Below are positions 1 through 32,270 of a stretch of 39,076 bases of DNA, one piece after another. The stretch is from assembly GCA_004299305.1 (NCBI GenBank), contig SCPZ01000078.1:1-39076 (forward strand), read 5' to 3'. The notes beneath the pieces were generated by a model. That model was not told the DNA's origin. It was given only the letters and a program-made list of their open reading frames with translations, and made no database searches. The DNA comes from Methylobacter sp. GTDB lineage: Bacteria > Pseudomonadota > Gammaproteobacteria > Methylococcales > Methylomonadaceae. Numbering within the stretch: position 1 is the stretch's first letter; each line of letters starts with the position of its first letter. A program made the position numbers and the translations under genes.

Positions 1-175
1 AGCGTATGCTAAAAATGATTAATGGAACACGGATGACACTGATTAAACGGATAATCACCGATTAAAAACCCAGAATATTTTGAAAAAAATCTGTGTAAAT
101 CCGTCCTATCCGTGTCGCCTAGAGGCGCCTACTTTTGGCATCCGTGTTCTATTTCTTTTTTCGCTGAATAGTTAC
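1..175. mobile_element. MITE-like element, copy A (left end cut by window)
   Basis: Near-identical to the element at 31064-31272 but lacking its first 10 bases, which lie outside the window. The right end reads CGCTGAATAGTTAC (162-175), matching the 14-base terminal inverted repeat of the other copy. Inside are two arms of an ATCCGTGT palindrome. The right arm carries a 23-base insert (116-138); the left arm (about 25-50) does not, whereas both arms of the 31 kb copy do. The reading frame at 80-277 runs through the element and is not considered a gene. Confidence 0.75.
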
Positions 176-253
176 AAAAGTTCTTTGGTTTGTAGCATCA
201 TTTTGCATAAAAGAAAATCAAAAAAAACGATCATTATTAAAGATATAGCGGCC

Positions 254-2809: not shown

Positions 2810-3352
2810 GTAGCTACTCAATAGATGCTAATTTTAATAAATAGAACACGGATGCCAAAAGTAGGCGCCTCTAGGCGACACTGAATTAGACGGATTTAAA
2901 CAGATTTTTTGATTTTCTTTTTATCATTCGTAAACAGTTTTCTTTTGAACTGTGGCTTTTTACCGAAATTCAAAAGTAGGCCAACCTCTATTTCTGTTGC
3001 TTTGAGATAATTGATCAACTGTAATTCGTGCTCTTCCGCTAATGATTCTGATGCCTTCAATTCAATAATTACACAGTCATTTACAATTAAATCTGCAAAA
3101 TATTCACCAATAATTTGCCCGTTATAATGCACCTTTATTTGTTTTTGTTTTTCGCAACATAAATCCACTGCAATTAACTCAAGAAACAAGGCATTCTGAT
3201 AAACTTTCTCTAAAAAGCCGGAGCCAAGTTCGTTATACACCTTATAAAATGCATTAATAATTTGATCTGTAATGTCTTTATGAAGCAGTTCCATTTTATC
3301 CGTGTTTATCAGTCAAATCCGTGTCATCCGTGTTCTATTTTTGAACTGCTTT
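2810..3352 (-). mobile_element. GxxExxY-gene-carrying repeat element
   Basis: Left arm 2842-2905 and right arm about 3293-3345 are inverted copies of the ATCCGTGT-type repeat seen elsewhere in the window. The left end GTAGCTACTCA matches the terminal repeat of the MITEs (GTAACTACTCA at 23697). A 23-base unit is inserted in the left arm at 2855-2877 and is absent from the right arm. The flanks share the direct repeat ATGGT (2807-2811 and 3353-3357). Removing the element would bring the ATPase stop and permease start to about two bases apart. The right terminus is eroded and its exact base uncertain. Confidence 0.7.
2896..3294 (-). CDS. GxxExxY family protein (PD-(D/E)XK nuclease superfamily)
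   Basis: 132 aa, typical length for the family. The name-giving motif is GFLEKVY (residues 26-32). Candidate nuclease core residues are E29, D68 (in EYFADLI), and E78/K80 in IIELKA, followed by the conserved HELQLINYLKAT segment (89-100). This pattern fits the PD-(D/E)XK fold; the activity of the family is not established to my knowledge. The gene fills the space between two inverted repeat arms: the start codon follows the arm sequence CACGGATAAA, whose GGAT may act as ribosome site, and the stop codon lies within the other arm (CGGATTTAAA on the plus strand). This suggests gene and arms are one unit. Codons are more AT-rich than in the flanking ABC genes. Confidence 0.85.
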   Translation of the reverse strand: MELLHKDITDQIINAFYKVYNELGSGFLEKVYQNALFLELIAVDLCCEKQKQIKVHYNGQIIGEYFADLIVNDCVIIELKASESLAEEHELQLINYLKATEIEVGLLLNFGKKPQFKRKLFTNDKKKIKKSV

Positions 3353-23638: not shown

Positions 23639-23985
23639 ATAGAACACGGATAGCACGGATTAGACGGATTAACACGGATTTATTCACTTTTTTATCGTAA
23701 CTACTCAGCAGATAGAAAATGGAACACGGATGCCAAAAGTAGGCACTTCTACGACTTGTATGGATGTAGGAGGTAGAGCAATGCAGGGGCAATTGCCGAG
23801 GCGACACGGATTAGACTGATAAACACAGATAAAACCAATGAATGGACTGTCCATCGACTCGTTTAAATGCGTTTAAATCCGTCCAATCCGTGTTCTATTA
23901 TAAAATTAGCCTTGAGTAGTTATTTTTTATCAGTGCTTATCAGCCAAATCCGTGTCATTTGGCATCTGTGTTCTATTTTTCTAAC
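23639..23985. repeat. ATCCGTGT palindrome (outer copy) between fae and Lon genes
   Basis: Left arm 23639-23687 and right arm 23932-23978 are inverted copies of the ATCCGTGT repeat; the loop has been split by the MITE at 23697-23923. The right arm reads GTGTCATTTGGCATCTG, where other copies have either GTGTCATCCG or a full 23-base insert, so it looks like a deletion remnant of that insert. The repeat fills the whole convergent gap from the fae stop to the protease stop. Confidence 0.75.
23697..23923. mobile_element. MITE nested in a palindrome, with target duplication
   Basis: Ends GTAACTACTCA and TGAGTAGTTAT form the terminal repeats. The flanking bases TTTTTATC occur directly on both sides (23689-23696 and 23924-23931); counting one more T the match is nine. 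Inside are ATCCGTGT arms; the left arm carries a 71-base version (23733-23803) of the small insert seen elsewhere as 23 bases. Best evidence in the window for transposition of this family. Confidence 0.85.
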
Positions 23986-31063: not shown

Positions 31064-31272
31064 GTAACTATTCAGCGTATGCTAAAAATGATTAATGGAA
31101 CACGGATGCCAAAAGTAGGCGCCTCTAGGCGACACTGATTAAACGGATAATCACCGATTAAAAATCCAGAATATTTTGAAAAAAATCTGTGTAAATCCGT
31201 TCTATCCGTGTCGCCTAGAGGCGCCTACTTTTGGCATCCGTGTTCTATTTCTTTTTTCGCTGAATAGTTACC
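31064..31272. mobile_element. MITE-like element, copy B, with terminal repeats and target duplication
   Basis: Perfect 14-base terminal inverted repeats (GTAACTATTCAGCG, 31064-31077; complement 31258-31271), flanked by the direct repeat AAAAATTA (31056-31063 and 31273-31280, with one extra C before the right copy). Both ATCCGTGT arms carry the 23-base unit (31109-31131 and 31212-31234). Sequence nearly identical to copy A (1-175), differing by exactly the left-arm insert. It lies upstream of both uvrC and the RRM gene. Confidence 0.85.
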
Positions 31273-31431
31273 AAAAATTATTGTAAACCTGTAATGCAAT
31301 CCGAGTCCCTAAAATCTTGACATTGGAATTTGTGACCGTCGGCTCCCTTGGCTAAGTTGAGCAAAGTTAGCCGTCAATGCTTTGTTGAGACACTGTATAA
31401 TTTCTAGGCTTTATAACCACACGGCAATCCC

Positions 31432-31711: not shown

Positions 31712-31734
31712 CGCCTAGAGACGCCTACTTTTAG
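31712..31734. repeat. solitary 23-base unit in a repeat-arm remnant
   Basis: CGCCTAGAGACGCCTACTTT and three further bases: the 23-base insert with two substitutions, followed by CATCCGTCTTCTATTTTT, the end of an ATCCGTGT arm. The other arm is missing, so this is a fragment downstream of the RRM gene. Confidence 0.7.
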
Positions 31735-31917: not shown

Positions 31918-32270
31918 CACGAAAAGCACGAAAGACACTAAATAAAACAATATGTTGTATTGATTTAGTGCAACTTCTCATTAATAACAGGTAAATATTC
32001 ACACAAAGGCACGAAGGACACGAAGTCTTCTTTTCTTCGTGCTCTTCGTGCCTTTGTGTGAATAAAGATTTTTTAAACGCCTGTGGGTAATGAGAAGTTA
32101 CGATTTAGTCACTCACCCTTTGGTTTGATAACCTTTTGAAATTTTTCGTGCTTTTCGTGTCGCCTAAAGCGCCTACTGTTGGTTTTCGTGGACGAAATGA
32201 TTTTTCTAGGATAATCCTTTGAAACTTTTCGTGTTTTTCGTGTTTTTCGTGGAAAAATGATTTATCTAGG
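31918..32270. repeat. CTTCGTG/TTTCGTG palindrome region
   Basis: Repeated words CACGAAAAGCACGAAAG (31920s) and TTTTTCGTGCTTTTCGTG (32142-32159) form arms of an outer palindrome; the loop includes ACTAAAT...ATTTAGT. The right arm holds a 22-base version of the small insert (32161-32182), between CGTGT and TTTTCGTGG. Further TTTTTCGTG units continue to about 32262. The nested element 31970-32101 sits in the loop. No gene seen in 31669-32418. Confidence 0.65.
31970..32101. mobile_element. MITE-like element with CTTCGTG interior and 8-base duplication
   Basis: Ends GCAACTTCTCATTA and (complement) GTAACTTCTCATTA, flanked by perfect GATTTAGT duplications (31962-31969 and 32102-32109). The 132-base element holds an inner palindrome TTCACACAAAGGCACGAAGG / CCTTTGTGTGAA-type (31994-32072). 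Ends match the ATCCGTGT-interior MITEs, so one mobilising system likely moves both. Confidence 0.8.

Follow-up and report, generated by a model that had tools for sequence, protein, structure and literature searches.

How do repeats of little more than twenty bases move? To our knowledge the question is still open for such elements, the small dispersed repeats (SDRs) of cyanobacteria included. The SDRs of Nostoc punctiforme, attributed to Elhai et al. 2008, are reportedly non-coding sequences of about 21–27 nt that are inserted precisely into other repeats. The element described here works like these cyanobacterial SDRs, which are also treated in sections of PMC4390886. Passages of PMC3733652 describe REP elements as a GTAG tag beside a palindrome with a stem of 5–13 bp, and some REP families as inserted within palindromes. 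Rickettsia palindromic elements (RPEs), in the portions of PMC2229807 that treat them, measure 105–146 bp, carry terminal inverted repeats and lie in-frame in conserved protein genes; the same portions state that most bacterial MITEs carry terminal inverted repeats and target-site duplications.

We describe a short unit, U, that recurs in a 39,076-nt stretch of DNA from Methylobacter sp., the whole of which was analysed and is called the window below. Its consensus is CCAA[A/C]AGTAGGCG-(3-4 nt)-TAGGCG, 22–23 nt in total, laid out as CCAA(A/C)AG-TAGGCG-spacer-TAGGCG. The internal TAGGCG direct repeat is strongly conserved at a spacing of 9–10 bp around a variable spacer of 3–4 nt. U has exact ends (5'-CCAA ... 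GGCG-3') that are not inverted repeats of each other; it has no coding capacity, and no room for a gene. After removal of duplicates, 259 copies could be sorted by spacer: CTT in 105 (22 nt), CCTC in 79, CTTT in 42 and CTCT in 11 (all 23 nt), with 22 others. A small hairpin follows GTAG within U, with a stem of 3–4 bp and an energy of -2.2 to -3.5 kcal/mol, no better than shuffles (z -0.6 to -1.4), and the 5' CCAAMA is unpaired. At L034, L047, L049, L330 and L284, U is followed by its own complement to give perfect or near-perfect palindromes, which suggests deletion between two facing copies.

Could U be the deletion remnant of a larger transposon with ends CCAAMAGTAGGCG and TAGGCG? An internal direct repeat with a variable spacer of 3–4 nt would fit such an origin. 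But no long element was seen to begin at any of the 67 GCCAAAAGTAGGC left ends in the loci fetched from the genome of the window: 50 lead into a complete U and five into a U split by a second repeat, element B, and the remainder comprise five fused palindromes, four shortened or fused forms and three other short forms. U is moreover intact where it interrupts genes, and we consider this origin improbable.

Features of the window are collected in the table. A scan with a U 20-mer (up to 3 mismatches) gave six matches in the window vs 0 in 100 shuffles, at 119–138 (-), 2855–2874 (+), 31109–31128 (+), 31215–31234 (-), 31715–31734 (-, 2 mismatches) and 23733–23752 (+, 3 mismatches); an edit-distance scan recovered a 22-nt copy at 32161–32182 (-). 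All six copies that an earlier note on this DNA had listed are present where it placed them, the sixth being found by the edit-distance scan. The copy at 23733 (+), in which element B splits U, is a seventh that the note did not have. At copy B of the host palindrome, 31080–31275 folds as a single long hairpin (-67.7 kcal/mol, z -15.8). The note had claimed that palindrome copies A and B differ solely by U in one arm. The 23-nt difference holds, but two internal substitutions and the last aligned base differ as well. Nor need the A/B difference reflect a new insertion, as conversion between inverted palindrome arms would give the same result.

Table. Copies of U, their host repeats and empty sites in the 39,076-nt window
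Feature	Position	Strand	Basis
Copy A of host ACACGGAT palindrome; left arm without U, junction GATG^ACAC at 35/36	1..176	.	A/B comparison
U, 23-nt (CCTC) type, in right arm of palindrome copy A	116..138	-	mismatch and edit-distance scans
U, 23-nt (CCTC) type	2855..2877	+	20-mer scan
Left part of U split by element B	23733..23751	+	
Element B, second small dispersed repeat, 48 nt here, inside U	23752..23799	+	
Final four bases (GGCG) of split U	23800..23803	+	
Empty GCAAGCA^AAGCTTGC hairpin site; occupied by 22-nt U at other places in the genome	28990..29004	-	
Host palindrome copy B, both arms filled	31074..31272	.	A/B comparison
U, 23-nt type, left arm of copy B, copy under study	31109..31131	+	
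U, 23-nt type, right arm of copy B	31212..31234	-	
Diverged U (2 mismatches in 20), then ACGC	31712..31734	-	
U, 22-nt (CTT) type with CCAACAG, in CACGAAAA^ACACGAAAA	32161..32182	-	
Empty CACGAAAA^ACACGAAA site, near-duplicate beside filled 32161 site	32236..32251	-	

The genome-wide search that the note had proposed bore out a dispersed unit. In the genome of the window (4.49 Mb, 144 contigs), the 20-mer with up to 2 mismatches gave 69 copies, and the degenerate pattern CCAAMAGTAGGCGN{3,4}TAGGCG gave 123 exact copies; a reversed-pattern control and the control for the degenerate pattern both gave 0. A fixed orientation, as the note had it, holds relative to the target strand but not genome-wide, where 34 copies are forward and 35 reverse. 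The statement that U always lies beside GTGT/ACAC did not stand: ACGC follows the 31712 copy, and since ACGC and AAGC flanks are common elsewhere in the genome, GTGT/ACAC is a property of two host repeats rather than of U.

Four repeats host U in this genome, namely the ACACGGAT palindrome, the CACGAAAA repeat, the GCAAGCA hairpin and element B, and exactly joined empty sites occur for four host families: ACACGGATG^ACAC, CACGAAAA^ACACGAAA (one of which adjoins a filled site in the window), GCAAGCA^AAGCTTGC and GAGCA^A[C/T]GCAGG. Host and subtype could be classed for 82 of the 123 copies. The CCTC subtype occupies 41 of 47 palindrome copies; CTT is the type of every copy in element B (13) and in the GCAAGCA hairpin (8), and of 8 of the 9 copies in the CACGAAAA repeat. 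Because subtype tracks host repeat, most copies in this genome have probably multiplied as passengers of larger repeats, and this carriage probably explains most of the copy number there. The 22-nt CTT form also occurs at the palindrome site, once among the 47 with a further inexact case in L336, and this site has therefore been used, or converted, more than once.

Several further features of these repeats were observed. Element B is found both inside U and as its host, at L064, L309, L310, L315 and other loci, and also in a larger repeat of genome G317. The host palindrome motif ACACGGATGACACNGAT occurs at 242 places in G000 (129 forward, 113 reverse, up to 1 mismatch, some overlapping). Some 22-nt copies lie within about 100 bases of G000 contig ends, for example those of C14, C25, C56, C74, C88, C103, C107 and C130, and longer U-holding repeats may break the assembly there.

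Is U then a fixed part of its host repeats that moves with them, its empty arms arising by deletion or by conversion between inverted arms? The tie between subtype and host fits this reading, as do filled and empty arms within near-identical palindromes. In two further genomes, G326 and G317, all 20 copies fetched (L298–L317) have U at the same position within a larger repeat. At one of these loci (L303), 8 consecutive nt of U are the complement of sequence in the adjoining larger repeat. Against a fixed part stand the presence of four unrelated host families in one genome and of U in genes and an intron that lack these host repeats.

Within genes, the junctions could be read against protein profiles. 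In a Gammaproteobacteria bin (L118), the NCBIfam IS66 profile runs to 329 and resumes at 331 across U (255 and 257 with the Pfam profile). In a Methylobacter bin (L182), the NCBIfam IS630 profile runs to 230 and resumes at 232; the Pfam DDE_3 match is looser, with 86 and 89 leaving two positions. The split codon is AAC in both genes, no target base being lost or duplicated, and no target-site duplication was found at either split codon. The earlier note had named units at fixed positions, with empty arms due to deletion only, as the finding that would speak against insertion. This does not describe what we see, because the flanking bases in the IS66 and IS630 genes form the sole missing profile residue, and because the 31109 copy is not enclosed by a direct repeat from which a precise deletion could arise (0 nt at one end and 1 nt at the opposite one). 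An origin as a fixed part of host repeats therefore appears unlikely to us. The note's proposal that U is inserted rather than intrinsic to one repeat fits the clean junctions in four repeat families, in genes and at a group II intron.

Other interrupted genes belong to several families. In L412 (from the same genome as L147, an Ectothiorhodospiraceae bin) RVT_1 was matched at 1–114 and 120–205 around U, and its split codon, CAA, is flanked by GVP and GGPLSPLL; the resulting VP-Q-GGPLSPLL is presumably a conserved reverse-transcriptase motif. L210 has the split codon AAG, a Zn_Tnp_IS91 match on its left piece and an ISCR match on its right. The right-hand pieces of L169, L114 and L131 mark these genes as transposase-type; on the left, L114 and L131 gave no family match. 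L197 was assigned by eye from its likeness to L169. At L108, U occupies 82–103, directly 5' of a group II intron match that starts at 110. In the purL gene of L196 (Methylobacter FW305_bin.9), U and B-like repeats lie in an open frame at 2611–2790; query residues 868 and 935 align to 967 and 977 of a solved enzyme, leaving about 57 extra residues. Judged by sequence, mobile-element genes account for eight of the nine identified protein genes that U interrupts or extends, in a list that is non-exhaustive, as further frame-consistent open frames exist, some without a family match. Dispensable genes tolerate inserts best. L119, L140 and L204, which also have family matches, were set aside as U-interrupted genes, U lying outside the matched domain and near the frame end. 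A search for relatives of the IS630 gene, with at most 20 candidates scored per genome, found one more copy that carries U, and partial matches, but no intact empty copy. At L379:1501-1824, a second U-bearing IS630 fragment begins 9 nt ahead of U, and its sequence farther upstream does not resemble that of L182; a recombination seam may lie at U there.

The same insertions bear on the idea that selection maintains U as a protein-binding or regulatory site. Its conserved direct repeat, with TAGGCG copies 9–10 bp and thus about one helical turn apart, is what such a site might look like, but copies of U sit within transposase-type and reverse-transcriptase genes, in purL and at an intron, and none of the neighbouring gene families is conspicuous. 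We hold a selected binding site to be very improbable.

Which bases does U choose? We distinguished 68 U contexts among 258 copies with overlapping loci kept; the count varies with the clustering rule (34, 65 or 68), and copies less than 20–60 nt from a locus end were dropped. In the set of 65 contexts, the base at -1 is A in 54 and G in 9, that at -2 is C in 38, and that at +1 is A in all 65. The scan for U in named species genomes required an A after U, but the scan that yielded L298–L329 did not, and +1 is A in all 32 copies of the latter, which come from seven genomes belonging to a single family outside the class. Among the subtypes, 23-nt CCTC copies tend towards R^ACAC (16 contexts: -1 G in 7 and A in 9, +3 A in 10) and the other types towards CA^ANGC, a difference that may reflect related hosts only. 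At the level of sequence, U demonstrably enters with precision at N^A, in most cases CA^A; where the junction could be read in codons, no target base is duplicated or lost.

We also asked whether target sites sit at hairpin tips. A perfect stem of at least 6 flanks U in 7 of 68 contexts vs a mean of 1.45 and a maximum of 6 in 300 shuffles; by a second measure, 6 of 65 contexts lie at hairpin tips vs 3.2% of 7458 CA^A control sites. Pairing of -2 with +2 occurs 33 times vs 19.6 expected (z 4.4), this being the best of 81 position pairs tried. Stems of at least 4 show no excess (22 of 68 contexts; shuffle mean 15.5, up to 25), structure around the 34 coarse contexts is no different from control in a folding test, and U shows no excess of pairing with its own flanks. 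Tips are enriched yet form a minority of contexts, and the indication of hairpin targeting is weak.

How widely is U distributed? The 20-mer with up to 2 mismatches was found in 22 of 61 genomes (that of the window and its relatives), namely 20 of 23 of the genus, 2 of 14 others of the family and 0 of 24 of the rest of the order. The exact pattern occurs in 8 of 398 genomes sampled from the phylum, that of the window included, the other seven belonging to one family outside the class. In named species genomes, exact U occurs in at least 110 stretches (116 copies), mostly proteobacterial. The records listed include Methylobacter, Methylotuvimicrobium, Sulfuricella, Solimonas, Stenotrophobium, Exilibacterium, Cycloclasticus, Geotalea, Geobacter, Desulfuromonadales, Nitrospirae, Nitrospinae, Polarisedimenticolaceae (Acidobacteriota) and Ardenticatenales (Chloroflexota). 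Most records outside the genus are metagenome bins, and a U-bearing bin titled Halobacteria is probably a stray contig; it carries the B context common in gammaproteobacteria. The cultivated Methylotuvimicrobium buryatense 5G (G479) holds 9 exact copies. By chance, 257 Gb would give about 3.7 pattern matches with uniform bases, and about 0.07 with a U-like spacer. A scan of viral contigs gave 0, and plasmid and phage records gave no match to a 54-nt B-U-B query, a search in which exact U alone is by our estimate detectable only near the E-value limit. The 13-mers CCAACAGTAGGCG and CCAAAAGTAGGCG and their complements had no match in the literature searched. The RNA-binding gene that neighbours the window locus is present in 14 of 23 genus genomes, that of the window included. 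Upstream regions were readable in 12 of the other 13 and by eye none was window-like, so that no orthologous filled/empty site between close strains was found; U occurs at 1 of these 13 loci (L341). Unrelated sequences demonstrably hold U in many lineages, among them repeats, genes of transposase and reverse-transcriptase type, and a group II intron. We are all but certain that it is a precise mobile insert.

What moves it? No mobilising gene for U was found. One candidate is a RAYT/Y1 transposase, with U as a miniature REP. GTAG followed by a hairpin of 3–4 bp within U recalls such elements. Single-strand transposases of the IS200/IS605 kind leave no duplication, and duplication-free junctions fit them. 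In the genus, 5 of the 10 loci of a 151-aa Y1 gene have U-like copies (up to 4 edits) that begin 154–166 nt upstream of its frame. But in these genus loci, by eye, other palindromes lie nearer the gene and U belongs to a different repeat. A home-made profile found a Y1 transposase ORF in 0 of the 110 listed named U loci, and U (up to 2 substitutions) was found in 0 of 30 Y1 loci of U-bearing genomes. Among the matches listed, three U–Y1 pairs within 2 kb on one contig were seen by eye, the nearest being a Y1 fragment about 230 nt from a U on contig 118 of G467. The hairpin of U is no better than its shuffles. Y1_Tnp is found in 57 of the 61 genomes (that of the window and its relatives) and in 25 of the 29 other U-bearing genomes, the remaining 4 being without a match. 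Mobilisation as a REP by a RAYT/Y1 enzyme seems to us unlikely, about as much so as a fixed part of host repeats.

Could a reverse transcriptase instead write U into nicked DNA by copying a short RNA, primed by the target? Exact ends, absence of duplication, a single orientation and one sequence across phyla would all agree with target-primed synthesis. The earlier note had suggested looking for a co-occurring reverse transcriptase, and the data do not support one: RVT_1 was matched in 13 of the 29 U-bearing genomes (12 over the cut-off) and not in the other 16, nor in either of the two that are known to be more than 90% complete and less than 5% contaminated. Many of these genomes are bins, in which absence of a gene may reflect incompleteness, and past carriers may have lost the enzyme. 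An Rfam scan of the window for a template RNA gave 0 matches. We rate this route slightly below the two alternatives just compared.

Neighbouring genes were also compared. The largest cluster, whose members we take by their motifs to be two-component regulators, reaches 19 of 110 U loci, and at 13 of these loci a member is found no more than 1 kb from U. This cluster is a single-linkage chain. Of its 27 ORFs, 13 are that close to U vs 33% of all 2858 ORFs; it was not taken as a link to U.

Together, we consider it likely that U is a very small mobile DNA module of 22–23 nt with exact ends, which spread in two ways. In first insertions, an enzyme acting in trans would join a short single-stranded piece to the target where A^A is nicked or looped; afterwards, the U-holding host repeats (the palindrome, the CACGAAAA repeat, the GCAAGCA hairpin and element B) would have spread or converted their arms. 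We are confident of such secondary spread in the genome of the window. For the insertion itself we tentatively propose a single-strand strand-transfer enzyme, template-primed synthesis and other routes sharing the rest of our expectation. Single-strand transfer is favoured because the junctions are clean and without duplication and because U has one orientation on the target strand; the modest excess of hairpin tips, and a GTAG with a small hairpin as in REP elements, point the same way. It is conceivable, though we would not yet count on it, that one 22-nt sequence is itself mobile across phyla, joined between adenines by a trans-acting system that is neither the resident Y1 nor a reverse transcriptase. 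If so, U would be among the smallest mobile DNA units known. As the genes it interrupts are other mobile elements, U may be a transposon parasite or the by-product of a transposon-inactivating system.

How does U compare with the described elements? Like MITEs, it is non-autonomous, dispersed and non-coding, but it has neither terminal inverted repeats nor a target-site duplication. Like RPEs, U together with B-like repeats lies in-frame in a protein gene, in the one case of purL (L196), but it measures 22–23 nt and has no terminal inverted repeats. With REP/REPIN elements and RAYTs, as portrayed in passages of PMC3116915 and PMC3733652, U shares short length, high copy number, a GTAG before a hairpin and a lack of coding capacity. 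Unlike REPs, it has a stem of 3–4 bp that does not surpass shuffles, an unpaired 5' end and no regular link to Y1/RAYT. The likeness to SDRs lies in a dispersed, non-coding unit of 22–23 nt, with 123 exact copies and precise insertion attested by filled and empty sites. Unlike SDRs, U is one sequence common to several phyla, targets A^A rather than HIP1 and lies inside transposase, reverse-transcriptase and intron sequences, and no cyanobacterium is among the U records listed. Set beside these systems, U is a tiny element that enters repeats, transposon genes and one central biosynthetic enzyme. With its exact ends, CA^A target, absence of duplication, codon-level evidence and presence in cultivated bacteria, it offers a clean case for the movement of tiny repeats, and makes the search for the moving enzyme directly testable.
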